Shown: positions 25,913 to 46,240 of the stretch, piece by piece
Numbering within the stretch: position 1 is the first letter of the stretch
Layout of the letters: every line of letters starts with the position of its first letter
From: Bryum argenteum
Lineage: Eukaryota; Streptophyta; Bryopsida; Bryales; Bryaceae
DNA: 64,000 nucleotides
Direction of reading: 5' to 3'
NCBI GenBank assembly: GCA_037043015.1
Contig: CM073322.1
Span: 23,836,364-23,900,363, forward strand
Program-made: the position numbers and the translations under genes
The notes under the pieces: generated by a model
Told to the model about the DNA's origin: nothing
Database searches by the model: none
Seen by the model: only the letters and a program-made list of their open reading frames with translations

Positions 25913-26118
25913 AGGCCAGTCCTATGTAAGGCAGAAGCTGATCCCCAATAATCCGGGGAAGTTGGTCGTATATGAGCGGAAGGTTAGTCTTGTGTAAGCC
26001 ATAGGCGAGTCCTCAAAAATCCGAGGGAGGTTCGTTGTTTATGAGCTGAAGGCCGGTCCTGTGTGACGCAGTGGCTGGTCTTTAATTACCCGGGGGAGGT
26101 TGGTGGTTTATAAGCAGA
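25913..26118. repeat. 68/69-bp minisatellite, three diverged units
   Basis: Units are 25913-25980, 25981-26049 and 26050-26118. Each begins AGG-C/T-AGT or AGGCCGGTCC, has TGTGTAAG-like and CCGGGG/CCGAGGGAGG motifs, and ends in TATGAGCxGA or TATAAGCAGA. Identity between units is moderate, so this is an old array. Confidence 0.65.
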
Positions 26119-26877
26119 AGGCTTTTTCTGTTCAAGAGACTAAGGCTGGTGAATGAGTCAGATAGGGCCGTGTATGTGCGGATTGCTGGTTTCATTTGTG
26201 CAAACGGCTTTGTTGGTTTTGTTAACGGTAGTTTAATTATGTTTTTGCGTCAAGCAAGTCATTTTTTTGCTGAGTGTTGTCCTTCTCTGTCAATTGTTAG
26301 GCATCTTTGTGCTTCTTGGTTCTGTTCATGCTTGCATAAACTTGAGTAACGTCGTGTATGTTTAGTGATGTTTTTTGTTTTTGTATTGTTCTTCATATTT
26401 TATTTGCTGAAGGTTTTGAGTGGTATTGGAGGACTCTGTTAATTAAGTACGAGTTGTTCCAAATGAGGAATCGGATGCTGATAGCGACCTATCCGCTATG
26501 AAAGTCCATGCTCAAGGAATCGTTGAGTTATAGCATTTTCTGCAGTCCCAGTAACGCCCTCTCCTACAATTCCTGTCCGCTACACCTCTAGTGATGACAT
26601 TGATCGGGTTGCACGAGCGAACTGCAAGAGATCAAATTATTATACGCAGGGGAAAGCATGTCATATCGAAGCAAAAGCATTGTCTTGACTTAAACCACGA
26701 CGTTCCCATGACTTCTAGCAAAGTCTACATCTAAATATATATCTCCTTAGAGTATATGATACTCATTTGATTATTTTTATTATCAGAAAATTTTATATTT
26801 CTAATCATATTTTTTTTCACTTTGGCATATTTTTATTATGTAGGTGATTTGTTGTAATTGGTTTTGGATTGTCAGAT

Positions 26878-27700
26878 GATTGTATCTCAAGTCCCTTCCC
26901 TTCAAGATAGACAAGACGTCCATCTGCCTCTCAACGATTTAGTCACTTCAGGGTCCGATGGAGATGATGTCATCATTGATGATGATACAATTCACCTACC
27001 ACAATAAAATGTTGAAGGTATATGCAGTGCAATTCCTCTGGATATTTCTCCGGAAACTGAAGATTTTCATCAACCAACTCAAGATTACGACAAATACGAC
27101 TCCCTTCCAGATGATGAAGTAACACCATTGATTCGAAGTGTCAACGTTGGAATCATTCACATGTCTCTACATCTTCAAAACAAGTAACCGGATTGGAGTA
27201 CAAACGAGATGCGTATGCTTCTAAAGAGTGATTTAATTGCAACTATAAACAGGATACGTTACGTACCTGTTAAGAAATCTCGTATGCTTATTCCTTTGTG
27301 TCCCCTCGTTTGTTATCCGAAAGTTCGACCCATCTCATAACAAGATGTCAGCAAACAAAGGTTACTGAGAAGTCGATCGGGTAATGTACGTATCTCTTTT
27401 TTATTGGAAAAGCAAAGAAAAAGTGGTTGACAAAGAAAATGAAATGTGAACAAACCCGCTTGAAGAGTTGCTAATGGATAATTTGAGAAGACGCTGCGGT
27501 CAGATTCGCATCTTCATCATCTTAATGACAAATACTATTATGTTTACAAAGGTAATTACCGTGTTACAACATGGATGCGACATATCGAGAGGTACCAGAA
27601 GAAGGAATCCTTTTGGTACATCTCCGTTAACTACATCGTACATGATACTCGTGGAGAGAGCAATCTCCTCCTTGATGCTATGAACGACATCAACTGGTAA
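26878..27700 (+). pseudogene. Remnant of an unidentified protein gene
   Basis: Coding-like stretches are broken by stops. The first begins near 26878 (MIVSQVPSLQDRQDVHLPL, then an acidic run DGDDVIIDDDTIHL). The last, at about 27485-27700, reads TLRSDSHLHHLNDKYYYVY, TTWMRHIERYQKKESFWYI and ends LLDAMNDINW before a TAA next to a GTAAGT. The final stretch looks like real protein for about 70 codons in one frame. The family is not recognised; decay and context suggest a transposable-element gene. Confidence 0.4.
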
Positions 27701-30700
27701 GTAAATATAGCATTTAAATCACATGTTTCAATGTGCAATAATCATCTTACATTTTAACTTATAAAAAATCACAAAATAGATTATGTTTTTCATGAGGGAG
27801 GCTATGACTTGAGCAGTGAGCCATGCACTAGTAACTATAACAACTTGTCAATTCGAAAATAATTCTAAGTTTGGTTAAATATAACAAAATTAAAACTAGT
27901 TACCAGTATCAAGAAAATTGGAGATTAAAATCTCAACAAACTTGTCTTACAGTCTTAAAACCCACTAAACTTAATTTCAAAATTGCATCAAAAAATAAAA
28001 ATGATATTTTACACCAACTACATTTTTTGGGCAAATACGTAGAGCCTCATTGTTTACACAATAAGACACTCTTGTACGCTTCGTTGCATAAACACTTTAT
28101 GATATTATTGTATATTTTTTCAACATATATACCTACAATTATCAACAAAAAAATAAAGTGGTATCCACAATCCTGCTGATTCATAAAAATTTCATTAATA
28201 TAGTATTATAGTTTATTGAGAGTTTCACAGTAATAAATGGTATTCAACTCTTTCAACTTACTCTCACTTATTTTTAAAAGATGTTTTTTAGTTTTTTTTA
28301 AAATGTTGAAAACAATATCGTTACATACACGTGTAAATCTTCAACAAGAATTGTACAGTACAATCCCAATTTTACGGTTTTATCAAATTTACAATTTTTT
28401 CTTTTCTTTCTTTTATTTTAAACGCTAAAGTTTCTTAAAAGGTCTTAAAATATACATCACAAATCCTATACAATAAGTCAATTTCAAACAATACATGCAC
28501 ATAAATGTTAAAATAGTATAATTTAATAACAAAAAATTAAAAATCATAATAATGATTGTTGGCTAAAAAAAATGAAATATATTAAGTAAGTCGAGCGCCA
28601 AGTCTACTGTCTTCTTCTTCGTAAAAACACAAATTATGTTTGATTCTTGACTTTAAAATTTTTAGAAGAATACAATTTGCAAATATTTTTTAATAAAAAT
28701 GTGAAATACATAACCATGTAAAATAAAACAGATTTTAGACATTATCTATAAAACTAAGAAATCTAACGAAAAGAATATTTGATATTTGAAAAAAATGTTG
28801 ATTTTATACAAATTTAAAACTTTCGCTTAAAAATTAAAATAATCACAATTTTTTTGGAAAAGCGCAATATGTTGCAAGATTCGAATGATCTTTTCAGATC
28901 ATAATTTTTTATATCAATTTAAATTAAGTTTCGCAATGATAATATAATGTAACTTAATGATAATAATTGATAGAATAATATTAAAATTTGATAATATAAT
29001 TACTACATAGAAGACTCTATTGCTACAAATTATTTAATCTTCTATATACATAGATATAAAATTGAAGATTCCATAATAATTAGTCTTAACCCATTATAAG
29101 ACTTTATTTAATGCATAATTTTTAACTTCTGACAAGATGAGCACCTAAAAGTAAAGAATCGAAAATGTAATAGCTCTATCAAAAGTTGACTTGTTATGAC
29201 AGAGACTCTTAAAAACTTAAATCTACTTAAATATTTAGGCATGTACAAATTAGCTTGTATGTCGGGACAAATAGCACTTTCGAATGAACACGCCCGAGAA
29301 GACAACCTTTAAAAGGATCAAATTCAGCACGTAGGCGGCCCACCCAGAACATCTTTTCCGCCCAGTTTGCTCACCCGATTACCTCAACATGCCCGATATG
29401 ACTTCCTTGAACACAAGTGTTGTCCGGTAAGAATATAGATAATTGCCATTACCTCGACAACTCGATGCCACCTCGTATTCTAGTGTAGAATCTTCAACAT
29501 AATATGAAACTCATGGCGATGCGGGTCAAATTTATTAATGTTGATGACGATTTGAAGCTGCCGGCATATTGTCGCTAGAAAATCGCAGAAAACTGCCGCC
29601 CCAAAGTAGACTAAACCGCACATACGGCTACAGATTTGCGATCACAACCTGACACTCAATTGCCAACACTTAGCACGGTTCATCAATTCAAAGAACGACT
29701 AAATAGGCAATTTAAGCGCACGGATAAGTGAGCTCTGCGGTTTAGAGTGAGAGGTTTGTGCAGCCTCTTGCTCGATGAATGCCATGAGCAATAGGCTAAA
29801 CAGAAAAAATCCAAATCTATGACTAAGATTTTCAAGAGTCTAGTAAGTGAGTTTCTTGCAGGCGATTAGGTTTAGGATGACGTTTTGTCATCCGTTGAGG
29901 CTAAGTAGAGAAATCGTAGGAGCAAGTATCGCAAGATGGCAGAAAAATGTGAGCGAATGCCAGACAATTGCAGAAAGCGAAGTTGAGATGAGTTCATGCT
30001 GGAGGTTGCAGTGCACCGTGCGAATTGAAATAGAAATCGTGCACAATGCGTTGCTGCATCTACACGCAAGCGGAAGGACCTTCTTGGCAGTTGAGGAATC
30101 GATAGTTTCAAATCCGATTTTTTAAGTGAATATTTAAATTATTAATTCATATATTTTGTGCGTTGAAAGAGATTTGAAGAATGCAAACTTAAATGTTCAT
30201 TGCTGGTCATTAAATAGAACGGTATGACATATGCCCGCCATACAAAATTAGAAATACGTGCATCGAATCAAAGAGATTGGTAGGGAGCGGTTCTAGGAGG
30301 AATTTAATAGATCTGGACTTGCAGACGTGCACGTCAACGTGAAGGAAGAGGCATCTACGGCTGAACCTTCAGAGTACTAAAACAAAAAACCTGTGAATAA
30401 ACATCAATGATGCATTCTTATGCCAATTAAGAGAAGCAAAATGTAGAGTTGTCGCCCCTGAGTGTCTGTTAGGCATTGGTCATGCTGGCCGCGAGGGCAA
30501 ATGGAATGACAGTGATACATATTTTTAAGTGCATCCAGATTCATGAAGATGAGCTTAAGTACCAACTCTCTTTGCATCTCGTGAAGAACGTGCTGGCTGA
30601 TAGAACTCATAGAAGCGCTGCTAGAGGCCCAGAATTTGCTCTTGCTACTCTTGTTTGGTTCGATATATAACTGAGTACATCACTATTCTCACACATGAAT

Positions 30701-30921
30701 GTCGATAACATCTCCTTATTTCAGGAAACAAGTTCTCCAAGATCACATTGTATGCTTGGATTATGGTACGTGACTGGATACAGTTAATCTGATAGATGCC
30801 CCAATTTCTTATTTAAGCCTCAGTTTACACAATGTGATTTGTTAAGAAGCAATTGTCGGTACCTGCAGTCGTTTCGCTACATTGTCATCTTCTCGAGTTT
30901 CTTATTCTTGCTCGGAAGCTC
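27701..30921. other. Very AT-rich spacer
   Basis: From 27780 to about 29330 the sequence is extremely AT-rich, with many A and T runs and only chance open frames. From 29330 to 30900 composition is more balanced and short open frames appear (for example 29847-30125). None has a motif or splice context I can defend. Confidence 0.5.
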
Positions 30922-32375
30922 TTAACCTCTAAACGCCCAAGGGGAGGTAAAGCTCCAAAAAATCATGCAGGTCAGGCCCTAGATCTCTGATTTCTCTCTG
31001 CCGATAAAGGTCTGCAACAGTGCGCCGTCGTGTTCAGAAGCGGATGATAAGGACAATGTTGGTATTAGAAGGGGACGGGAAGAAAGAAAGCAATGGCGAG
31101 GAGGAGCGGAGGACGAAACAAGCCTCCCAAAGCACTAAATCCCACAACTGCGTGGGCGTGTTTGACACTTAACCTCGTCAACGACGTTTAACAACAATCA
31201 CAAGCCTTGCTTATGTTTTATCTGATGCTAATTAATGAATCATTGTCACCTGGATGCAAAAGAAATCTGTACTTTTTATTGAGGAGATGATGCCAATTTT
31301 ATGCTCAATTTTAGGACATTTTGTGGTGAGATGGACTACATGTTCTGTTTCAAAGGTTTTCTTGGTTGATAGAGTGTCAAAACGTTGTTTTGAGGTCAGT
31401 GATGTTCTTTGGTTTATGCTCCAGGTTATGCATTAATTTTGCACAACAAAACTTAATTAACCACTAAAGTTACAAGGCTTGATTTGAACTGTTCGCCCTC
31501 AAAATTGTCGTCTCTCAATGCAAGCATTTATTTTTCACATTGTAATCGAATTCCAAGATTTTAACCGTAGGATCTAATGTCTAACTTGTATATGATCTTT
31601 TACACCAAATCTCAAACTAAATCTCTTCACTATTTGTGAGATCATAATCTTCAAAGTTGAAACAAAAGTTTTTTCCCTTGTTGTTAAAAGGGAAATCAGT
31701 AAGCAGGTCTATACTGGACATTTACAAGCCTGCCTCGGTCGTGTCGGCTGCGTTCTGATCATGGTAATGCAACTGTCCGCGTGCCAAAGCTCTTGCAGTG
31801 TTCATCCGGGTGGATGCATGCATCTGAGCACACCTAGAAATGCCAATGCTGTTCTACTCATGCAGATTCCAAGATCCAAAATCCATACAGAAAAGAGGTG
31901 AAAAACGCTCTAAAAAAAGGAGAGGCAATAAGTATTACTTTACTTTAGGCTAATATTACTTTTTTTGAGGGCCTCGGGTAAAAATAATTCCTTCTAAAGA
32001 AAGGAAGATAAGAAAGCAAAGAGAAAGAATCTGAAAACGGAACGTGAAAAAAAAAATTTAAATAGCGGCAATCCACCTTGCAAAGCAAGGTGGTGAAATT
32101 GTGGTCTACAATTCTCTTCCCGTTTATTTCCCTGCCTACTCAATTTCTAAGCAAAATTTTACATTCCAATGCAAAAGCTTTCATACAAAAAGTCTACTGC
32201 TCCCTCTTACAATTCTTACTATTTACCCAACTGCCCAGCAGAGTAAACCCGATGGAGAGGCGGTCAAATAAATCTCGGATGAAAAAATGATCGGATGAAA
32301 GCACGGGAGCTGTGCAAAGATGACGGAGTACATCCAGAATGTCAAAAAACGACATTCTGGATGTTTAAGGGTTAA
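30922..32375. mobile_element. TTAA-ended element, about 1.45 kb
   Basis: The left end reads TTAACCTCTAAACGCCC at 30922 and the right end ATGTTTAAGGGTTAA, closing at 32375. These are the inverted ends seen in the 39388-40369 element. A subterminal hairpin lies directly inside the right end (32330-32364), at the same place as in the other copies. The interior does not visibly align with the 1-kb copies, so this may be a different internal sequence between the same ends, or two unrelated ends. No coding sequence is recognised. Confidence 0.5.
32330..32364. repeat. Perfect 14-bp subterminal hairpin
   Basis: ACATCCAGAATGTC (32330-32343), 7-nt spacer AAAAAAC, then its exact inverse GACATTCTGGATGT (32351-32364). 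It sits 8 bp inside the right TTAA end. The corresponding place in the other copies keeps a shorter stem, ATGTCG with CGACAT, and the same CATCC/GGATG flank. Confidence 0.85.
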
Positions 32376-33778
32376 GGTACGTCTTAGAAACATTAGGAAA
32401 TTTTTTTACACTTGAATCCGCCAAGAAGTTAAATACGGGCATCATGTTTCCCTGTCTATGTTGGCTTTGTAGGCAGCCTAAATACTGGAGCTGAGCAGTA
32501 AACCGTTGCTAGAAGTTTTCAAGGAGAGGAACTTTTGTATGCAGGAGAACCGACTGATAACAACCATCAACTGAAAAGCTTCTGGAGCTCAAGAGCAAGA
32601 GGTATCTAAATATCATCAGGCTATTAACAGGAAATATATCACAGTATTATCGATTCTTGCTTTTATCATACAATTTCGGTCTCTTCGTTTCTGCACTTGT
32701 CTTTGTGGTAACACATATTTATAATTTTGCATTTGTTGAAATGATCGCAGAATGGTTCTTTTTGTGATGACACGACGGAAGGATAAATGCCACCCTTCAA
32801 AAGAAGAAAGCTGCCATTGAGATAATTGCTAGAAAAGATTTTTAAGTAGAAGATAAATCAAAGAAGAGGAGATGGAAATAAAAAATATATGTTCTTATTT
32901 TCAAATTTTCAATGTTACAACTTCTATTTATGTCACCGTGGTTTTTTTGCTTTATTGATTGGATTTCGTTTCGTTTGGTTATTCTTGTGATTGCTATTTT
33001 GTGTATTTAAAGGATTTGTGTTATGAATTGGATTTGCTCTTCTACCCATTCCCATTTTTATCACGGTACAAAACTATTCTAAAATTTTATTAAGTTTGCC
33101 AATGAAACATGAGCACAACAACGCAATATCATCAAAAAAGTGATCCAATGACAATCTCATTGAAAAACTATTTGCAATGTGTATCACAAAAGCATGCAAT
33201 ATAAATTATTTAAACAAACAAATTAGATATGAAGCGTTTCTAATTATCTTAAAAGCGTCTTAAAGATTATTATTGTAACATAGAATTGTTTGTTAACGAT
33301 TATATTGTAGCACTAAACAATTTCCAAACGTTACAAAGTTCTAGCAAAGTTCCAAAATAATGTTTTGCTAATGCTATGATTTAGTTGTACACGTATATAA
33401 AATGCCTATCAAAAACGTTTTAAAAACGTCATAAATATGTTTTTGTCAAATTTTATAACGTTTTTTTATAGACAAATGTATGACATTTTTGTTTTATCTT
33501 TAAAACGCAAATCTGACATATTTAAAACGTTTTCCACCCGAAGAGATTTTCATAATTGTTTTAAAAACGTCATAAATACGACACAAATATGTTTATATAT
33601 TGGCAACGTGTAGTAGTTCTAACTAGCCAATTCACTGCTTTATAAGTAGGTGGTGACAACTTGAACTCACATGTACGTCGAGTGTTCCGGATCGTTAAGT
33701 TGTCTCGTTGCTCATCTGTAATTGTATTTTGTAGCCTCTTGTATACCCTCTACAAATTGAAAACGTAGTGACTGTTAT
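32376..33778. other. AT-rich spacer with AACGTTTTAAAAACGTC repeats
   Basis: Between about 33410 and 33590 the segment GTTTTAAAAACGTCATAAATA occurs twice in direct orientation, with further AAAACGT and ACGTTTT motifs between. This suggests a small palindromic element. No gene is seen. Confidence 0.4.
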
Positions 33779-35606
33779 TCAATTTGTCTTTCTATGGCTT
33801 ATGCTAGTGTCTCCCGCTTCATTACGTTGATGACGAGCAATTGGATAGCCGCTGCTGTAACACGTCTTGATAGTCGAATTTCCTCTTTTAGTTTCGTGAA
33901 CACTTTTCTTACTAAATTCAGATAATTGCGCTTTCATTATATCGTCGAGTTGCTGAAAAATGTTTTGGTGGTTGTTAACTCGTACTGGTGTCACGGACAT
34001 GCCATACTGGGTATTATCCACACCCCATGAGTTTACCGTGATCAGCCCTACTTCTCAAAGATTTCTTAGATTCCGTATATTTTGCAAGTTCAAGTTTTCT
34101 GGAAGGTTCTAGAACCTTCCACTAGTTTCCGAAAGCTTCCTCAAGCTTCCGTATAGCTCTAGTAATTTCCGGAAGCTTCCACAAGCTTCCAGATAGTTCT
34201 AGTAGTTTCCGGAAGCTCCTCTAAGCTTCCGGAAGGTTCCATAAGGATCCAATTGTTTCCGGAAGGTTCCATAAACTTCCGGAAGGTTCCGCTTGACCTT
34301 CTTAGATTCCGGAAGCTCCCACGAGTGTCCGGAAGGTTCCATAGGAGCTTCCCAAGGCCTCTAAGACCTTACTCCGGAAGTTTCTTCTAGCCTAGTATAT
34401 ATAGAGAGTTGAAGGTCGTTGTTCTTCACTCTCTTCAACACCAGTTGTACCTACTCTTCCAGTTATCAATACTACTCTCTGTTCTCTTACTTTGAGTGCC
34501 GTTCTGAGTCTTGCGTGAGGAATCCCCTCACTTTTAGTCTATCTTGGTATCCTTTTGGAGTCTCCCCTCAATCTTGTCTTTGATCTTGCCTTGGAGTTGC
34601 TGTCCGCAACAACTGACCTTACTTCAGAAGTAGCATAGTCAAATTGCCGTTGAACTGCTAGTTGCTTCCACAATCGCATATAATACAAAAGCGTTTGCAT
34701 ACCCAAATCGACAATTGGGTGATACAGTACATTCCAATCATCAAGTGTCAAATCGCTTGGTACCAGTACTTCACACAACAGGTTCTGCTGATTCTCAATT
34801 GAATTTATCTTCTTCCAAACTTGGGCGAATTCGGTGCGGGTCAATGCAATATCCTTATCAAAATCAATGATCTTAAGCAATACATCTCTCTGCAATTCGT
34901 AAACTCGAAACTACGAGTAGGATGGTCGCGACTTCACTTGTTGCGTCCATAATGCGTCTTGTAGACTAATTACAACTTTACAAGGCTATTTTGCACCTTT
35001 AGCTGATTATGCAAATCGTCATTGGCCACTGGAAGAGTTCGCAAATCCGCTTGTGTTGAATCGGTCAAGGTGGTAGCATGTCTCGTACAGGATTCTTCCA
35101 CCAGCTTCCTCTTCAATTCGTCTTATAGATTCTTTATTTCCTTCTCAAGTTGTTTTTGCGCCTCCTTGTTCTTTTGTCATATAGCTTGCAAGTTGGCTTG
35201 GTATGACTTCACCTCCTCTGCTGCTCTGCAGGGCAATTAGCTTTTTGCCCAACACCTTGCATTCCTCAACCTTGCTCGAATAGCATTGCTCTTGTAATTC
35301 GATCTTTTCTTTTCTTTTCTTTTTAACTTGCTCAATCGTCCCTCTCTGTTTTTATTGTTTGTTGAAGAGCTGTCAACTCGTCTGCTTGCTACTCGCATTG
35401 CTGCTACAATTTGTTCCTACTTTGAGTAATCTTTGTTAATTCGATCTGCATCCGAGTTTGACAATCTACAGTTCTACACTTGTCATCCACTCCTGTTGAA
35501 TTGTCCTCTCATGCTCTTATTGTTGGCTGAGCTGTTGTTTCAACCCGTGCAGCAATGGTTCTAACGGCAACTCGACGTCTGATGTGTTGGGTCTTGGGTG
35601 CTCCAT
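33779..35606 (-). pseudogene. Decayed coiled-coil protein gene, gag-like?
   Basis: On the minus strand an ATG at 35606 opens MEHPRPNTSDVELPLEPLLH, followed by Gln/Glu/Lys-rich sequence (KQQLSQQ, HERTIQQEW, KEAQKQLEKEIKNL, DELKRKLVEES) with several in-frame stops, consistent with a long coiled coil. Two better stretches follow: 34895-34539 (LLKIIDFDKDIALTRTEFAQ...) and 34021-33779 (QYGMSVTPVRVNNHQNIFQQ...). Between these two lies the regulatory array at 34097-34404, read from the other strand. A retroelement gag-type protein is possible but not shown. Confidence 0.45.
34097..34404 (+). promoter_or_regulatory. Phased heat-shock-element array upstream of a TATA box
   Basis: TTC triplets recur every 10 bp from 34107 to 34337 (18 of 24 positions exact), and GAA triplets occur 5 bp later at 34112, 34172, 34212, 34232, 34262, 34282, 34312 and 34332. 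This is the nTTCnnGAAn pattern bound by heat-shock factors. The strongest site, 34097-34119, has five perfect alternating units (TTC, GAA, TTC, GAA, TTC). A TATATATAG box follows at 34396-34404, 16 bp after the last GAA (34378-34380). The arrangement is that of a heat-inducible promoter. It may be the U3 part of an LTR, but I could not define LTR ends or a second copy. Confidence 0.65.
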
Positions 35607-35664
35607 GATGAACTTGCTCATACGAGGAATGTGGAACCGGCGGTTCTACCTGTATAGTCAAGGC

Positions 35665-36473
35665 TCGGGGGGTGCACTAGGTGGTAGAAGTAGAAAAGTA
35701 CGTGCGAAATAATGTAGAGTGTCAAATAAATCTTTGAGCTAAAAATTACAATTACTTTAGATCTAGAATAGCATATCAAAATATGCATTGAATGCCCTTA
35801 TAACTAATATAGGGTGATATTTAATTCTACCAAAGTAGAAAAAAGTAGAAATAGTATAGTTTATGGATTATTCAGAATTTATGCCAGAACGTCAAATAGT
35901 GGCGCAGTGCTAAAAATGGAGCTCTAGTAATCTTCAGTCAGAGGTACATAATAGCTCAATTTTTAGCACAAGAAATCTACAGGGATGTCACCAGTACAAG
36001 CAATTTTTTGTGCATGGGGAAAATTAGAAGAAAGATAGAGGAGATAGAATCATCATTTTTGGATTCTTCTACAATGAGTTATGAATTTTTGAAGTTAGAA
36101 ATATAATGGTGCCCTAAAGTGATACCCTATAATCTCTGTAGTGAGTGCATGATACTATTGCATGGGGAAGCTATTATGTGCCTCTGACTGAAGATTACTA
36201 GAGCTCCATTTTTGGCACTGCGCCATTATTAAACACTACCATAATCACTTGCTTTCCATCTGAAAAATGAAATTTCAAAGTAATATAGCATATGATATAT
36301 AGATAGAAATCAAAAATTACAATTAATCTATGCCCTTACTTTAATGACCCAAAGTATCAAATTATGTAATCATAGGGTGCCAAAAATTAGAGAAAAGGAA
36401 AATAATAGCCCCCATTTAAATACTCCATGATCGCACCTATATCCTTATTTTTTTCAAGGAGTGCACCCCCCGA
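35665..36473. mobile_element. 809-bp TIR element with an inner 62-bp foldback
   Basis: The terminal inverted repeats are TCGGGGGGTGCAC (35665) and GTGCACCCCCCGA (ending 36473). Inside, 35895-35956 and 36169-36230 are inverted copies with three mismatches (ATGGAGCTCTAGTAATCTTC core). No target duplication is obvious and there is no coding sequence. Part of the centre (CAAGCAATTTTTTGTGCATGG ... TCATCATTTTTGGATTCTTC) recurs at about 41712-41815. Confidence 0.65.
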
Positions 36474-39387
36474 AAGCTAACGCTTGGTCTGGAAAATTGA
36501 TTGTGGCAAGTGGTTCTACCACGGGCCCATGGCCAATCGCTGAATGGCAAGATTCTTCGGCAGGTGTGGGTCACATAAGACAGAAAGATAGTGGGCTGAG
36601 AGAAGAGCAAAAAAATTCTCTTCTTCTTTATCTTCAATTCGACTTTAATATGCTTCGAGACAATTTGACCCCAGTTGAATTGTACTCCCTTCCAAGCAAC
36701 AAATCCGGCTATAAGGGCTTTCGTTGTTGTCAATCCGAACGACTCGCCAAGAATAGTTGTTGAATGACAATTTGTAACCACCAAGATAGTGGAATGGCCA
36801 ATACCCTCGCACTGCTGCAGACGAAAGAGAGTCTGCTCTTGTCTGAGCGTCTCCAACTCCACCAGCAGGGCTCCGACTCCAAGGCAGCTACCTAAACAAG
36901 GCTACACTCACAAGTATCGCAGCAGCCAAAACACAACCCTTGGAGAAGGTCTAGCAACCCCCCAACAACAAGAATCGAGGTTGCAGTACTGTAAAGCACA
37001 CATTTCCGAAAATGTCTGCTTTACAATACTCCTCAGTATTGTCGAAAATGCCTGCTGACTTTGAGGCTAGAGCGTCGGCAAGTCAACTCTTGCCTCGACG
37101 TCAGCAGACATTTCGGATGGTATTTTTGCTGCTCTGAAGAGCACTCACGCTGTTGCCAACATCATGCCATCGTCGCCAAGGAAGGTCGCACAATTTCGAG
37201 TAACAAGGAGCAGCATGCCGACTCTCTCACAAGATCCTGCAGAATGTTGGAGCGCGAGCTATGAGCAGCCAACATCTCCAAGCTCCAGCCACGGAAAGCC
37301 AATTAAAAGAAACAACAACACCTCCGCAACCAGACATTTATAGACGACGACGGGGAAAGATGGAAATTTAGAGTTTTTTAACTCTAGTTTTTCAACTGTT
37401 TTCAACTCTAACAATTTTCCGTCTGACTTATACAAAGACAAATTGGCTCGCAGAGAAGCCCGATGTAACAGGGTTGTTGACCAAGTGGAAACTACCAAAA
37501 ATTCTTGCAGCCAATGTATTTACAAAAATTTAGAGTATTCCGCTTCTACAAAAATGAATACTTTATCACATTCTAGTGCCTTACAAAAATTAAAGAAATT
37601 GCAATATCAAAACCACTTCTTACAAATCAAGGTTAAAAATTAAGCACGGAGGAAGCCTCTCATGCGGTTATGCGGAGTACTTTATAAGAATTAAGAAGCA
37701 AGGTACAAAAACAGCCCCTTTCGCCTTCCAACATTTCCAATCAAATAAATATAAATCAAGAAAAAGACAAATGTTACTTTAAAAGAATATTCCATAATTT
37801 GCAATGCTATTGTTTTCCACCCATTTCATTACAAAAAAATATGAAATGACTAAATATATTTTGTTGGGTTTAAATGGTCTTGCCCATTTAAATTCTAAAA
37901 CTCAAATTTGACATCATGAATTTGACCAAATATGGGCAAATGTCAATCAAGAGACAATAGACATGATTGTTTTCATGTGGCACTTGGTGGATTTGTGGAT
38001 TCAAACTAGAGTAAATGTACTCTATACAACCGCTCCGGTTTGCTACATTATAAGACGTATAATTCCCACATATAAGATGATCATTGAACATCACAACATA
38101 TTTTTTGCTAATAAATCCTTAACTAAAACCTCTGAAAAATCAAATTACATATGACGAAGTACAACAAAAGTCTACTAACACTTTGATTGACACGAATATA
38201 ACATATTTTCACAAAAATATAGCCAAGTTGCTTACTATTGACAACGGCCTTTATCATCATATAAAAGAAGGTGGACTTTACTATTGGAACATAAACATGC
38301 TCATTTTCCTCTTAGAATTCGCAATGTGGACTTTTTGGAGGGATAGGGAAAAGGCTCCAATAACATACAAACGCATATGCAATAATATATGACATTTGAT
38401 TTCAATGCTTTATACTCATAATTTAAACATTCCATCATTTGATCTGAGAGCTTTCCATTATATTAAATAAACCATGTGGACATGATTCTTTTTAGAAGAG
38501 GGGGTAAATGTCAATCCTTAATTCTACAAGAAGTATTCTAGAATTATATATTTTTTCCCCTTTCGAGGAGCCGTCAAATATTCCTTTTAACCTATATACT
38601 AGAGTATCAAAGATATTCAAAGAGAATATACATTATTCTACCATTTCCAACAATTTTTATACTAATTGAAGCATTTATATGCAAGATATGATATTATAAA
38701 AGTAGTTAGTTATTACAGTTTAGAGAACCATTTTAGAATGGATTAAGTTCTAGAGAGGTAGTTATAGAGTTGGTTAGGTTAAAAACATAAGGTAGTTAGG
38801 TAGTAGTTCTAACTCCTATCATGACCATAGAAGACTATAAATTTATAAATAGTCTTCAAAGCTTGCATCACGGTACTTTTCCATATAAATAAAAAACTAC
38901 ACATTCTTCTATTGCAAGGTTTCTACTTCTTCACATTTAAGACAATAAACAAATAACTCTAAGGTTGTCTACTAATAATACCAAGATAGCACAATCCAAA
39001 TGCACAAGACAAGGTTATTGTGAATATTAAAAATCATACGGAAGTCTAATTTCCGAGGAACGGAAATTGGCTTTCATCTTCATAAGACTTGAAACATCAA
39101 AACTAAGAACTTACATGGTGATATAACCAGATAACCTATACTTCCTCTTTCTTTGACTTCAGTCAGTTTCAAACATAAGCACCGATCTAGTAATGAATAT
39201 ATTTTCAAAAAAAATAGTTTAAAAGTGCATTTTTAAGATCCCAAATTTCAGCTCACAAATGAAGGAATGTCCTAAAGAACTCAAGAATCGGAATTTGACT
39301 TTACAAATTTTACCACATACACTTTTGCAGTGTAAGGAGTACTTCGTAAAAATCTTGGGCAAAAATATTTCTTCAAACACCTTCATT
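36474..39387. other. Repeat-rich spacer without a supported gene
   Basis: A 34-bp imperfect palindrome (GTAAAGCACACATTT ... AAATGTCTGCTTTAC) lies near 36990-37025, with a related inverted piece near 37100. A minus-strand open stretch at 36862-36437 has no ATG and no domain I know. From 37650 to 39387 the sequence is AT-rich. CTACCACATACACTTT-like sequence at 39310 recurs at 41218, flanking the next elements. Confidence 0.4.
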
Positions 39388-40369
39388 TAACCCCTAAACG
39401 CCCGAGCCTATTTTTAGCAGAAAAGCACATATCCATAAAAATTGTCATAGATGAAAATCAAGAGAAGCTATCAAGATCTCAACCGTACAAACTTGTAATA
39501 GACTTATCGAAGATTATGTGGACCAAAATTTGAGTCATGAGGCCTTATAGATCGGGAGATCATAACATATTAATATCAAAAACAAACTGCAAAATTTCAT
39601 CATTCTCACTTTGAGGTGGAAATGCTACCAATATACCTATTGCAATGAAAAAATCACCAACTAGAAAGATGTTCAACTTCATCTTAATAAGTCCTTTACC
39701 CAACAAAAATTCATCAAAAAAAATTCTTGGCTCAAATAAAAGCCATGCAATGGTAAAATCTACCGAACATTTTACAAAGGAAAAATAGTCCAAAACTAGA
39801 CCCTTTGCATTCAATTTCATCCCTTATCTTCAAAACATCTTCGATCTTGTTAAGATTTCTACCACTTAGACTAGACTCTAATTGGAGGCCATCCCAAAAA
39901 ATTAAGTTGAAATCCAACGGTGGATGAGGGAGATATAGCTCCTCAAATATCATCCATTTTCTCACTTTTTCTGTTGACAAAACATCATTGCAAATCCAAT
40001 AGCAAAATCATTTGGATCAAAAAACTTCTCACTACAAAGTTGTTAAGAATCACCTTAAGATCATGACCATGAAAAAAAAAAATCATGAAAAACTATTTTT
40101 AATGTCACATAATTGGCTTGCAATGATAATACATGCCCCATGCTTGGAAACCCAAAAACAAGAGTTGTCTTCACTAAAGTGCATTCCATTAATTCATACT
40201 TTATTGTATGGGCTTGAAAATTTAAGAACACAAACTAGACTTGATTTGTAACCTAATCCAAGTGATTTCATCCAAAACGGACCTCGGATGAAGAAGATAC
40301 GCCTCTTCAAAGTTTCTAATGTACATCCAAAATGTCGTTTTTCGACATCGTGGGCGTTTAAGGGTTAAG
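39388..40369 (-). mobile_element. TTAA-ended 1-kb element, copy 2
   Basis: It is 982 bp with well preserved inverted ends: TTAACCCCTAAACGCCCG on the left and GGGCGTTTAAGGGTTAA on the right. The left 12 bp equal those of the piggyBac element. It aligns in reverse over its full length with 9198-10182. A small stem, AATGTCG-TTTT-CGACAT, lies inside the right end. Open stretches of 70-86 codons on the minus strand are not shared as proteins with copy 1, so I regard it as non-coding. Confidence 0.75.
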
Positions 40370-41060
40370 CTGCCCGAGATTGCAAAAATTATTTTGTGTC
40401 TAAAGTAGCTTAAGGTGGTAACAACTAATAGCACATAATTATTTTAGACCTCTAAAACCAAAAACTGCGATTTTTAACCACCTTGTACATGATTCACTTT
40501 GATGCACATTTTTTGTATCTTGAACATTAACTTATTAAACTAGACTACTTGCACTAAAACCAAGTAAAATTCCAACCGTTGGACCTTTACCAAATGTAAG
40601 ACCATAACGTTCAAAAACAACTGAATAGTTTTTTGGGCTTCACTTGAAAGGCATAGTCTATATGTGCCAAGGAAGACTTCATGATTATTACTGCGAACAC
40701 TTTGTTCATATTTATTTCTATGAAGGTAATTGAGTTGGCTCTGCTTTTTCATAATTTAAGAGACTCAATCCGCTTTTTTGACCTTCATGTATATTATTTC
40801 TAAATGACGGTCCAAAAACAGAGATATAGTAAAACATGCATTTCATTAGATATATTTGGTTCAATTAAAGATCCAAACGGCGAGTAGGTGACTTTATGAT
40901 TTTGTGAATTTTGAGAGAAAAGATTTCAAAAAAATTCAAAATCTCGAATTTTCACAAACATTGTAATAGATACTTTAGAAAATTCCTAGAAATTGTGAAG
41001 ATTAGTTTTGTAAATTTGGAGGCTGTCCTTGTGAGATTGACAAACTTTTTGACTTAGGTG
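40370..41060 (-). repeat. Sequence related to the right arm of the piggyBac element
   Basis: In reverse orientation this stretch follows 23270-23860 collinearly. Matches include CCAAAAACTGC near the end, GAACGTTATG(A/G)TCT, CCAACGGTTG(A/G)AATTT, CTTGGCACA, and GAGATTTTG/AGATTTTGGAA. It is diverged, but the order is kept over about 600 bp. It looks like an old, partial relative of the large element, with copy 2 of the 1-kb element sitting at its TTAA end. Confidence 0.5.
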
Positions 41061-42376
41061 ACTTTGGAATTTGAATAAAAATTTAGTTATGAACATATTT
41101 ATATAAAAAAATTAAAAAATCCAAAAAAAAGTCTAAATTTAAACTGCCCTTTCTTGAATTAAAATCTCAAATTTCTATATGAAGTTTTTTAAAATTTAAA
41201 TTTAAATTTTGCAAATTCTACCACATACACTTTGCAGAACTGCAGTTTTAAAAGCACTCTCTAAAAATAATAGGAAACAAATTTACACGCACCAAGAAAT
41301 GTTAAAAACAATATGAACTTCGTGTGTTGAATATTTACATAATTGGTTCGTTTTAGCCTATGAGTCGCACAAAGTCTTAATGTAATGGTTTGTGTGGTTT
41401 GATATATATTTATTTATTTCTTCGTTAAATTGTGATATAAGATGAACTTAGAGAAAAATGTGAGGTAAAATTGAGAGAAAAAAAAATTGAGCTCAAATTT
41501 AGTATAATATTTGTGAAAATATTAATGATTCCAAAACGGTTGTGTGAATATGGGGAAACAAGATTGTGTGGATCAATTACAAATTGGTAATCAAGTTCTA
41601 AACCGCAATATCTTTGGTTCTTTAACCTTCTTCACTCAATTTTTCAAGTTTAAATATCAATTGATTACTTATACGAGGCTAATTGGCATGGAAATTCCGT
41701 GATGAAACTAACAGTATAAGCAATTTTTGTGCATGGGCAAAGTAAGTAGAAGTGCAGACTAAGTTTATTCATCATTTTTAGACTCTTCTACTATTTGCTA
41801 TAAATTTTTGAAGGTGGACTTGAAGATGACCTCGTGAATGAGTAATAAGACAGACAATGATCGATTAGAAATGTAGGTTCTTATACAGAAGAGTGGGGAG
41901 AGGTGCATGATCTCCGAAGACCTAATTTCTCCTTTAGGTTGCGGCTAGCATTCGTCTATCAGAAGCTAACTGAGAAGATGAATGTTGCAGGACTTCTGTC
42001 CCCTAAGACTGCGCGCCAGGTCAGCTGCCACGCTGGAGGTTTAGAAATGCCAACAGGACTTCCAACGCTATAACAAACATGTTAACACATTCTACACCTC
42101 TTGTCACCACATGCACATTTCGAGGCACTCAGGAAAAAACAACCAGTACTTCTCATATTGTATTGCTGCGGGATTCGAATTGGGAATTATTCTGGTTTGA
42201 ACACGAAAATCTAAATGGGAAGCAAGTGAGCGATGGAGTTTGACTCAGTCACACTTTGCAAGCAAGACGAGTTAGAACAGTGGCAATGGCATTATTGCTG
42301 AGGGAACAATAATGCACAAAAGTGGGGGTAATTTGAGCGCCCCGGTGAGGATGATTGAGAAATTTGTAGTGGCTAT
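41061..42376. other. AT-rich spacer with a fragment of the 809-bp TIR element family
   Basis: At 41712-41815 the order AAGCAATTTTTGTGCATGGG, then ATTCATCATTTTTAGACTCT, then TATAAATTTTTGAAG matches the centre of the 35665-36473 element. The rest shows no gene. Confidence 0.45.
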
Positions 42377-42761
42377 GGTTGAAGTACCCATAACCACCAG
42401 CACCCCCACTATCAACATGTAGGTCTCCCAATAACCGCACCTAGCCTGAACTAGCATTGTCAGAACACTCAATTCAAACTGGCCAATCAAAACAATCAAA
42501 AAGCTGGTGGTTTTGGGTTGAATCATGAATGGAAATTTGTACCAGCTAAGGTGGTTTTTGCATACCCTATAGGTTGATTACGGGTCCTGCACTACTTTAC
42601 TGTTTGAAAATTTGTATTAATTCATGTGTTTTACAAAAAAATATAAAAAATTACAAACCTTCCTAAAAACTATCTTGCCACCCAAAAAAATTACCCACTA
42701 TAAATAGACCATTTACAAATGGGCGAATTTTCTTATGTTGGTGGTTATGGGTACTTCAACC
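42377..42761. repeat. Perfect 23-bp inverted repeat, 339-bp spacer
   Basis: The 23-mer at 42377-42399 (starting GGTTGAAGTACCC, ending ATAACCACCA) is exactly inverted at 42739-42761. Identity stops sharply on both sides. The spacer has no coding sequence that I can support. Confidence 0.8.
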
Positions 42762-43579
42762 TTAATGGGAGATTTGAGATTTAAATTTAAGCGTTGTCAG
42801 TTGAGCTTTGGCCACAGACAAACATTTGGCTTCTCCGCAAGCGTTTCATGCATGGACTTCGTCTGTTTGCCTGCACCAACTCCTGCTTTCGGGATTCGCT
42901 TTTCCATGCATTTAGCATGTGCCTTCCCAATACCATGCATGCTCCTTAGGGTTTGGATCTCATTCTTTGATTGTTTTTCTGACACAATTAAGGGAATTTG
43001 TTTTACTGGAAAGAGCAAAGAAAATTACAGAGGCGAGCCTTGGCTTGGAACTCTGATGTTCCAATATCTATGAACAATCGTTCAACACAATCTTTGCTGT
43101 GTACGAACCCAATAATTCAGTTGTCGTGTCAGTAACAAACTTAGATATCACTCAAATAAGATGCTGCTGACTAATTCTGATGATTATTGTTCTCTTCGGA
43201 GGATTGAAAAGCACAGCTAATCACTTGTCGTTCAACTAAAGTCCTTGGACTTGACACGATTCCATGGCAAACCATCAGATATGATCGAAGCCACCCTGGA
43301 AGGTTGCTTCCTGTCGAGGATCAATGCTGTATGTACGTAATAGTTTATTCATTCATCTGGTGCCGCTTTTCACGTGTGCGTCTGACATTGAGGAATTGCA
43401 ATTCTCGGAATTGTAAGTGCCAATTTCATACGCAAGCCGTTGAGCAGTATTAGATTTATGAGGAAGAAAGAAGTACGTGCACAATCCGAGCACTAAAGGA
43501 TATTATGTTATCAAAGTTTAGGTGAATAGCGCTAACTTACAGAAAAGTCAAAAGGAAGTGTACGCCCCACTCTGTAAAC

Positions 43580-44350
43580 CCATCATTCATTGATGGATCC
43601 GTGCATTGCATGCTCAACCACGAAGCGACATGGTCGTCACCATCGATGTTCGACGACATGCATGTCTTCGTATAGTTGTAAGAGATCCGTTAAAGGTAGC
43701 GGAGGTACCAACATATGGCCGGCTCCTGCCGTGTGCTTCACTGTGAGTTTATTGGAATCTAGTAGAGCAGTAACAAAGCTCAACTTGTCTGCTTCACGTT
43801 CACCTCACAAACTGTCAACCACGAATGCCAAAAATTCAATTGGGTAGATAAATACTTTATTGACAAGATTGGATCTGGAATGAAAGTGAACAGCTTGCAG
43901 TTTGGAGTTGAACGAATTGGCTTCCATTTCACTAGATCTCGGTAAATAAATGAATGGACCCTCTCCCAGTCCTAACCCAACTCGATGACATTGGGAAGCT
44001 CTTCTACCTTCACGGTATATCGGTTACCAACACTTACAGTTTAAAATATATGCAACCAGCTGACTGCTTTTCAGTATCAAGATCGAAAATAAACTCAATA
44101 AATTTCTCCCTTGTAAGTGGGATCTCCGTTGACTGCATTCTCCCCCTCCACTTTTAAAACACAAATAAACTCTTCCTTTTCAAAAATCATTGGTGGCATA
44201 AGCAAATCCTTGACGAATTCGGGAACTCTCTTCCAAGATGCCACTTTCGAATGTAACTTTCGCACCGACAATTCACTCCTAAACTTGAGGGATCAATTCC
44301 ATTCCAGAAAAGCAGCTAACTATCCACTACAGTCGGAAATTCTACTGTAA
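43580..44350 (-). pseudogene. Faint minus-strand coding traces
   Basis: Short protein-like stretches occur on the minus strand (RVPEFVKDLLMPPMIFEKEE near 44220; LTVKHTAGAGHMLVPPLPL near 43720), separated by stops and frame changes. No family is recognised. It may be a decayed gene or transposon upstream of, and divergent from, the pectinesterase. Confidence 0.25.
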
Positions 44351-44571
44351 GTTAACTATCTTTGTGATAAGGCTAGACTCAATTATGCAAGAGTAGGCAT
44401 TACTTACACGCAGTCAACAGCCGGAACTTGCCGATGCGAATGTGGAGCTCAAAACGGAACTAATCACTGGGTCCCACGGAGATCGAACACGGATTATATA
44501 GACATCTTCCGAAAACTCTTCATCCAGGCACGACTACTGATTGCTTAGTTCGATAGTTAATTCTTGGCGAC

Positions 44572-46240
44572 ATGGCCCGGCTCTCTGGATTTGTTGCCGT
44601 TGCGCTCCTGTTAATCGGTGTGGGACATGTGTGCCAGGCCGTGACGGATCCCCTGAAGAAAGCCAACCATGATGCAACTGAGGCAGACTTCTGGCAATGG
44701 GTGTCGGCGGTGGAGGCGAATCACCAAACATATACGCTGACTGTCAACCCCGAGATGACCACGGAGGCTGTTTCGAGCACTTTGTATGTAGGAAACGGCG
44801 GGTACAGTAAGGTGCAAGATGCTGTCGATGCTGCTCCTTCCGGCGGCGGCCGCACCACCATCCAAATCGCTTCTGGAAGCTACTGGTCAGCTATCTAACA
44901 TCCTCCAAATCCTCGTTTCCAGTCCGAGCACTTGCACAAACCATGTACATTTTGAATGCTATCATCAAAACATTCAGAAAGAGTCAACCTTACGTGCTCC
45001 GAAGCGTGTTTGCAATTCATCGTGGGAGTGACGAGAGTATCTTCCACGGTTTCGTGCTATGTGTGGGTATATAGTGCATCATTCTTATATTTTTGGAGTA
45101 TATGTGGTTTGGCAGGGGGAAGGTAACGGTGCCCAAGGGGAAGACGATCACGTTTGAAGGAGTGGGCAGCCCCGAGATCAACTACGATGATACGGCCTCT
45201 TCTGCAGGAAGCACTTCCAACAGTGCTACAGTGGCAATTCTGGCAGATAACTTCATTGCTAGAGGCGTTACTTTCAGGGTACGAACTTAGTCGGAACATT
45301 CATCACTTGAAGTGATGCATTCTCTAGAGCTTGATTCTGACACGTGATTTGTGCAGAACTCCGCTCCGGCTCCCCCCGGAGGCGCTGTGGGAAAACAAGC
45401 AGTGGCGCTTCGAATCACCGGTGACAAAGGAGCGTTTTTCAACTGCAATTTTTTCGGTGCTCAGGACACGCTCTACGACCAGAAAGGTCGTCACTACTTC
45501 AAAAACTGCTACATCGAAGGTACAAATCCAAACTCAGTTATCCATTCTACCATAAGCAATTAATTTCGATCATGAATAACATTGATGCTTGGATTGCTTT
45601 ACAGGCAGCATCGACTTCATTTGTGGCGATGGACAATCAATCTACCAGGTTAGTGTGCTGCTCGGGAGATCGACAACCCTGTTTGTGTTCTTCAAAGAGA
45701 ATGATCGATCTCTTGTACTCATCAGGTAATGATTTGTACTGTGTGCAGAGCTGTCACCTGAACTCCATAGCCAAGCCAGGAAGCGGATCCTTGTCAGCAC
45801 AGAAGAGAACTGGAGACTCAAGCACAGGATTCTCATTTGTGGGCTGCACGATCACTGGCAATGGACCGATTTACTTGGGTCGTGCTTGGGGTCCCAACTC
45901 TCGAACCGTCTTCATTTACTGCAACATTGCGGACATGATCTTGCCGCAAGGCTGGTACGACTGGGGTGATAGCAGCCGACAAAAGTGAGTGTGGGCTAAC
46001 CATCTGAAACTCTCAATCTCTGCCGATTCCATTCTTCCATCGAATAGTCGCTTTCATTTTTATTAAAGGGGAATGCAATCCGTGTGCAGGACGGTGTTTT
46101 TCGGGCAATACAAGTGCACGGGTGCCGGTGCAGACACAAGCAAACGAGTGGGCTGGGCCAGGGAGCTCACAGATTCTCAAGCGTCTGCTCTTTCGTCCAT
46201 GAGCTTCATCGATGGCAGCAGCTGGGTTCCATCAGGATAA
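44572..46240 (+). CDS. Pectin methylesterase, secreted, no PRO domain (6 exons)
   Basis: Exons: 44572-44885, 45116-45278, 45357-45519, 45605-45648, 45749-45984 and 46090-46240. All phases fit and the product is 356 aa. Residues 1-22 form a signal peptide ([12 protein letters not shown], cleavage before VTDP). The mature protein starts directly with the right-handed beta-helix domain, so it lacks the N-terminal inhibitor-like PRO region. Catalytic signatures: GAQDTLYD (Asp 196), [10 protein letters not shown] (Asp 217, nucleophile) and YLGRAWGP (Arg 273), with QAVALRI upstream. It removes methyl esters from cell-wall homogalacturonan in the apoplast. Usual family GxYxE is replaced by GSYWGK at the exon 1/2 junction, and DFIFG reads DFICG. 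The stop follows SSWVPSG. Confidence 0.93.

Follow-up and report, generated by a model that had tools for sequence, protein, structure and literature searches.

Phased heat-shock-element arrays in the long terminal repeats of putatively self-priming Ty3/gypsy elements of the moss Bryum argenteum, probable promoters under heat-shock-factor control

Heat-shock factor (HSF) binds as a trimer to nGAAn units whose orientation alternates. A 64,000-nucleotide stretch of the Bryum argenteum genome (assembly GCA_037043015.1, contig CM073322.1, positions 23,836,364 to 23,900,363 of the forward strand; hereafter the window) contains an array in which TTC recurs every 10 bp, with GAA offset by 5 bp, upstream of a TATA box. 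This locus raises the question of which kind of element carries so many heat-shock-element (HSE) units and whether they form a promoter. An initial annotation of the window proposed a heat-activated retroelement long terminal repeat (LTR) like that of the copia element ONSEN. The LTR part of this proposal was borne out and the copia part was not: positions 33989-34611 are, by their sequence features, a solo LTR of a self-priming Ty3/gypsy family of chromovirus type, designated here as family A. The best reading of the array, which we consider probable, is that it and the arrays of two further families, B and C, represent HSF-driven promoters of Tcn1-like self-priming chromoviruses, ONSEN-like in their working but not ONSEN.

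The array itself was as the initial annotation had described it. TTC occupied 18 of 24 successive 10-bp steps in the best phase, counted from 34097 or 34107, and the units on the lattice ran from 34097 to 34337, the last of them ending at 34339. Within 34097-34404, 19 of the 23 TTC shared one phase and 9 of the 11 GAA lay in the phase 5 bp away. A comparison with shuffled sequence, also asked for at the outset, placed the array far above all shuffles: among 2,000 dinucleotide shuffles of 34080-34420, the 24-step TTC count had a mean of 3.0 and a maximum of 6, and the number of lattice units within 240 bp, 27 in the real sequence, had a mean of 4.0 and a maximum of 10. These shuffles rule out a chance origin. 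The five perfect alternating units reported at 34097-34119 were likewise present, and they are the single perfect alternating run of at least four units in the window. The TATA box TATATATA does follow 16 bp after the nearest GAA, as had been noted, but this GAA (34377-34379) is off the lattice and no part of the array.

A search for other copies and for paired LTRs with target duplications had been proposed beforehand, and both were found. We searched the window's own assembly (259 Mb, 25 contigs) with 34080-34420 as the query. Of 288 initial candidates, 40 were scored, and all of these matched over 339-341 of 341 bases with an identity of 94-100%; several form same-strand pairs approximately 6 kb apart. 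In eight fetched pairs, the LTRs were 609-626 bp long, started with TG in 15 of 16 cases and ended with CA in 15 of 16; an alignment of the two partners showed 1-8 mismatches and 0-6 gap columns, with just 1 mismatch in 613 for three of the eight pairs. Identical 5-bp target duplications flank six of the eight elements, and the polypurine tract AAGGGGGGG-TGA precedes the 3' LTR in seven, being altered in L028. Family A thus has the paired LTRs, TG...CA ends, short duplication and polypurine tract by which an LTR retrotransposon is defined. Among 23 further fetched LTR places, 8 were solo LTRs with exact 5-bp duplications. Our family A set comprised 43 rows, of which L003, L004 and L008 refetched L027, L028 and L021, leaving 40 places. 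The family A start region occurred, with up to 2 mismatches, at 202 genome places (22 for the reversed control) and the junction of 5' LTR and primer site at 41 (control, 0), while the B/C start region occurred at 222 places (control, 0) and B/C 5' LTR junctions at 107. Given that start-region places exceed 5' LTR junctions in both sets, solo or broken copies are numerous. Family A LTRs also lie head to tail every ~5.9 kb, in runs of up to seven, at C1:19.777-19.836 Mb and C6:11.223-11.289 Mb; in these clusters the strand switches across a gap of ~17 kb, giving a mirror image that might mark a centromere or a site of unequal exchange.

The copy in the window was identified as a solo LTR because self-comparison of the window revealed no partner LTR, duplications flank it, and a paralogue of its flanks is shorter. 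This empty-site paralogue (L091, on contig C6) is 67-69% identical to the flanks and lacks the LTR, with 30 bp in place of 658 bp in the window. The insertion is accordingly 628 bp long, or the LTR plus 5, although at this identity the alignment ends may be off by some bases. Such a solo LTR is unable to move, yet it could serve as a promoter or an enhancer. Its features are listed in Table 1.

Table 1. Features of the solo LTR locus, in window coordinates
Feature	Position	Strand	Basis
Solo LTR of family A, 623 bp, TGTCACGGAC...GTCCGCAACA	33989..34611	+	Extent common to 7 other copies; ends and flanks from 8 paired elements; 42 fetched copies at 39 other places
Left target-site duplication, ACTGG	33984..33988		Sequence; 4 of 5 bases equal to the right copy
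Right target-site duplication, ACTGA	34612..34616		Sequence; 628-bp insertion = 623 + 5 relative to empty-site paralogue L091
HSE array in U3, 28 TTC/GAA units on a single 10-bp lattice	34097..34339	+	Lattice count and shuffles
Five perfect alternating HSE units, TTCnnGAAnnTTCnnGAAnnTTC	34097..34119	+	Longest run is 5 at 34 of 40 family A places
TATA box, TATATATA	34396..34403	+	Sequence; 32 bp before the self-primer at 36 of 40 family A places, exact match absent in 4
Putative RNA 5' end and 11-nt self-primer, ACTCTCTTCAA	34428..34438	+	All 8 paired elements have the complementary TTGAAGAGAGT directly inside the 5' LTR
Older repeated sequence, target of the LTR insertion	33621..35581	-	521-aa frame in paralogue L091

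The position of the RNA start is suggested by the way in which these elements appear to prime reverse transcription. In all eight paired A elements, TTGAAGAGAGT lies 2 nt inside the 5' LTR (3 nt in L009 by the boundary used) and is complementary to LTR sequence over 13-14 nt. The complementary 11-mer ACTCTCTTCAA begins 32 bp past the first T of TATATATA. Family B has a different primer site, TTGTCGAGACT, whose complement AGTCTCGACAA is likewise found 32 bp past TATATATA; the primer differs between A and B/C on both complementary sides, as pairing demands. When the 20 nt inside the LTR were shuffled 2,000 times, the complement length of family A was reached in none of the shuffles for each of two copies tested, and the 11-nt complement of family B was reached in 2. 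The spacing of 32 bp between TATA box and primer was kept at 36 of 40 A places (exact matches are lacking at the other 4) and in 12 of 14 B copies; of the 33 C places, 18 show it, 3 have 31 bp and 12 lack an exact match. The primer site opens with TTG, whereas pairing with the CCA end of a tRNA would need TGG, and such pairing is therefore not expected. A precedent is Tf1 of Schizosaccharomyces pombe, whose RNA begins with 11 bases that are able to pair with the primer site and are removed by a cut after base 11 (PMC7175516). Tf1 has the 11-base self-primer in common with the elements described here, and its transcription is induced by short heat stress; it differs in being fungal, and the available text on it mentions no HSE array (PMC7175516). 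Since the 11-nt complement 32 bp past the TATA box marks an RNA start near 34428 independently of that box, we infer that transcription starts at 34428 and that priming proceeds from this end, in agreement with the start near 34430 guessed in the initial annotation. In all three families, the sequence between TATA box and start is also complementary to the start region (34404-34438 in the window and the B/C equivalents), as in GTTGAAG...CTTCAAC of family A; family B has a longer stem with a GCAA loop.

Domain scans of one copy from each of two families defined the class of the elements. The A copy contains RVT_1 in L014 and Integrase_H2C2 downstream in L015, and the B copy contains RVP_2 and RVT_1 in L049, followed by rve and Chromo downstream in L050. 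The reverse transcriptase (RT) is thus upstream of the integrase in both, which is the Ty3/gypsy order and rules out an ONSEN-like copia element. Over 210 residues, the A and B RTs share 74% identity. The frames of the scanned A copy showed no chromodomain. That of family B matched PF00385 with E=8.9e-14, and its Y, W and Y align with those of the CDYL and CDY1 chains; we take these three to be the residues of the aromatic cage. Ty3/gypsy order, a chromodomain with aromatic residues (here in family B) and the sequence signature of self-priming are shared with the Tcn1-clade chromoviruses of mosses and club-mosses (PMC6317226, PMC2864245, PMC3350952). Plant Tcn1 elements have been reported from these two groups, and the majority of them are predicted to be self-priming (PMC6317226). 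Unlike in the families described here, a primer site was not identified in SM-Tcn1 of spikemoss, for whose LTR TATA and CAAT boxes are described, as far as the available text of these sources goes (PMC6317226, PMC2864245, PMC3350952). The word 'heat' does not occur in any of the three papers.

Families B and C extended the observation beyond the copies of the window's LTR. Six perfect alternating units were found at 241 genome sites, as compared with 12 in the reversed control, and those among the matches listed were variants of one type; the LTRs are fewer than 241 because one nine-unit run yields two overlapping six-unit sites. Five perfect units gave 797 matches with 200 in the control and are hence less specific. 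Family B was represented by seven fetched LTR pairs ~5.7 kb apart, with an LTR of 487 bp and nine contiguous perfect units in intact copies. Family C, found via LTRs of elements with other RTs, has an LTR of ~403 bp with an array; its 34 rows correspond to 33 places (L120 is the same place as L087) and 32 distinct copies (L119 duplicates L118). The longest perfect runs in A, B and C were 5, 9 and 5 units, and all three families contain three or more adjacent nGAAn motifs, the criterion used for heat-responsive LTR retrotransposons. The LTRs carried 29, 21 and 22 lattice units, respectively, with maxima of 11, 10 and 8 in 1,000 shuffles, and the count varied from 10 to 25 over the 33 C places. 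The plus strand has mostly TTC in A and mostly GAA in B and C. The LTRs of B and C share 88% identity over 326 aligned bases; A can be aligned to both in patches only, and an origin in common with A is therefore possible but unproven. The B LTR resembles a C-like LTR with ~98 extra 5' bases (L052 608-705), which open with a second TGTCACGGACAT like the start of A and hold another four-unit HSE, suggesting an LTR with a newly gained 5' end.

Four relatives, three with ~60% RT identity and one with 55%, had no array: their LTRs contained 2 to 5 lattice units, within the range of shuffles, and among the elements examined the array is thus confined to one group. Of ten elements, three were left out (L083/L084 and L085/L086, without an LTR pair, and L079/L080, whose best match was in another repeat). 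L081/L082 (55% group, 4 units) was also left out of the lattice comparison, and the 60% element on C4 starts without a resolved TG end. Among the three 60% elements, two carry a self-complement of 10-11 nt located 1 nt inside the LTR, and the third carries one of 14 nt that lies 19 nt inside. In the 55% element, TTGGTATCAGAGC resembles the initiator-tRNA site, and the LTR holds one three-unit HSE run. In the ~60% group (L071-L076), LTRs are short and some members have very long open frames, the longest of 1,380 aa.

We infer HSF binding and heat induction of these LTRs from the layout of their sequences, and the proposed mechanism is as follows. Lying upstream of the TATA box, U3 would act as an enhancer of tandem HSEs that are 10 bp apart and hence face the same side of the helix. 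Upon heat, host HSF trimers would first occupy the perfect five-unit site, from where binding may extend cooperatively to the adjoining step-type units. RNA polymerase II would start 32 bp past the TATA box, at 34428 and the equivalent positions, and the RNA would pair through its first 11 nt with the site inside the 5' LTR and, after cleavage, prime reverse transcription as in Tf1. Families B and C would follow the same plan. The genome contains at least five HSF DNA-binding exons, indicating that HSF genes are present.

Known systems offer several likenesses. ONSEN/COPIA78 and other heat-responsive Brassicaceae COPIA families have heat-responsive elements in their LTRs that HSFs recognise, with recurrent gain across families; they differ in being copia elements with four (ONSEN) to six (TERESTRA) nGAAn motifs, as compared with the 21-29 lattice units found here (PMC3907296, PMC5059998). 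The arrays described here also contain CG and CHG sites, which are absent from ONSEN. In Brassicaceae COPIA elements, four adjacent units correlate with up to thousand-fold heat induction and three with up to hundred-fold (PMC5059998); by this rule, the five-unit sites of A and C and the nine-unit site of B would rank as strong. Strong heat induction has been reported for the gypsy element RLG2 of Physcomitrium (PMC7466625). TCN3 and TCN12 of Cryptococcus are likewise LTR elements with putative HSEs and are mobilised at 37 °C, although they are fungal and have two and one putative HSEs, respectively (PMC12810828). The HSE-bearing Helitrons of Caenorhabditis similarly spread HSF sites by transposition, but are animal DNA transposons (PMC6927752).

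The main competitor is that the array is a decanucleotide minisatellite grown by slippage in an ordinary LTR, with an incidental HSF likeness and a promoter driven otherwise. In keeping with this, Tandem Repeats Finder recognised repeats of 20, 30 and 40 bp in parts of the array, and array length shifts by 10 bp between A copies (LTRs of 623 vs 613 bp). The diversity of the array cells argues in the other direction. Over the 32 distinct C copies, mean diversity was 0.065 in GAA cells, 0.183 in linkers, 0.184 in TTC cells and 0.111 in the rest of the LTR, and GAA cells were more conserved than linkers (p=0.0001) under a base stratification that corrects for cytosine deamination. The same stratified comparison gave p=0.011 in family A, and between B and C differences were seen at 2 of 51 sites in GAA cells as against 11 of 68 in linkers (p=0.04) and 14 of 51 in TTC cells. 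This conservation and the array-free relatives weaken the notion of a functionless minisatellite; it is also at odds with a unit that follows the HSF grammar in each of A, B and C, whose longest perfect runs are 5, 9 and 5. We regard it as unlikely.

Several observations nevertheless weigh against HSF-driven promoters. The advantage of family C GAA cells over the rest of the LTR was weaker (p=0.02), and TTC cells varied like linkers overall, as a minisatellite would predict; much of the array is therefore of the step type. With stratification by base, TTC cells were lower than linkers (p=0.0057), a comparison with just 3 linker C columns, and they were not lower than linkers and the rest of the LTR combined (p=0.97). 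A frame shifted by one base was equally low in diversity (0.058), so that the conserved block is GAAG. Without stratification, the core-linker difference in family A did not reach significance (p=0.067; 0.16 when CpG was left out), and GAA and TTC cells jointly did not differ from linkers between B and C (p=1.0). The run of five was kept at no more than 19 of the 33 C places. Counted per copy, 49 of 70 indels in the C array were of 10 or 20 bp, but distinct events of this size were 7 of 24 in the array vs 3 of 21 outside, without a clear excess of 10-bp steps, which suits a minisatellite, and phase-keeping indels were dropped as support. Gap and step sites mostly did not suffice to make Brassicaceae COPIA elements heat-inducible (PMC5059998), and RLG1, a chromodomain element and the most abundant Physcomitrium transposon, is heat-repressed (PMC7466625). 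The lower diversity of the array than of U5 in family A (0.023 vs 0.148) was left unused because those copies had been selected by an array query.

Alternatively, the arrays may bind HSF while their main effect lies in the hundreds of copies, as an HSF reservoir or in shaping chromatin. The excess of start-region places over 5' LTR junctions, with many copies solo or broken, and the 241 six-unit sites would suit such an effect. However, the fixed layout of array, TATA box and start is promoter-like, and the conservation has a simpler explanation in element-level selection, which makes this alternative improbable. Least probable of all is that another factor, such as a GGAAG-binding protein answering another stress, occupies the lattice, as the best-conserved block GAAG rather than GAA alone might suggest, given that perfect alternating runs of 5 to 9 are an HSF signature (PMC3907296, PMC5059998) and that HSF genes are present. 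Promoters of self-priming chromoviruses under HSF control thus remain the preferred interpretation of the arrays.

The sequence into which the LTR inserted was reported in the initial annotation as a gag-like pseudogene on the opposite strand. The LTR does interrupt sequence whose paralogue has a minus-strand frame (L091 1367-2932, 521 aa), but the gag assignment found no Pfam match in either the window frame or the paralogue. A Pfam scan of the 521-aa frame yielded no significant family, the best being Spc29 at E=0.023, far below the cut-off, and one of the window frame at 34539-34910, among three frames of at least 120 aa in 26000-45000, was without a match. The insertion target is low-copy, with 4 other places at 67-68% identity. 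Elsewhere in the window, a 752-aa open frame at 20032-22290 (+) has a DDE_Tnp_1_7 transposase domain (PF13843, E=7.6e-73), which we take to be of the piggyBac type. In the genome at large, we noted 90 Lhc-family matches, as befits a plant; the PDB chains closest to them were 9vfj, scored as the sum of two stretches, and then 7xqp and 8htu, both from Physcomitrium. Tandem arrays of many ~235-aa Lhc-superfamily frames with partial profile match lie at C5:8.16-8.41, C5:14.73-14.76 and C2:25.06-25.09 Mb and are reminiscent of the multiplied ELIP genes found in desiccation-tolerant plants.

LTRs that respond to heat and Tcn1 elements that prime themselves were already known separately. We found no report in the open-licence literature searched of HSE arrays in Tcn1 elements or of LTR arrays this long, and the ladder of 20-30 phased putative HSF sites is larger than any found there. 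A broader scenario, which we put forward as doubtful, is that a chromovirus sub-lineage in a non-seed plant turned its U3 into such a ladder and spread to hundreds of copies, many of them solo, which are now a main reservoir of strong HSF sites and are able to give host genes heat control or to divert HSF. Owing to the complementarity of primer site and RNA start, the expected start can be read from the sequence itself, and the promoter can be mapped before RNA sequencing. Three array families and several array-free relatives provide a comparison of how many HSF sites are needed by a promoter and whether stacking them benefits a transposon. If true, our interpretation would join the capture of HSF by retrotransposons, as in ONSEN, with the self-priming Tcn1/Tf1 elements, and would tie genome change directly to stress in a plant that is probably often drying and heating.
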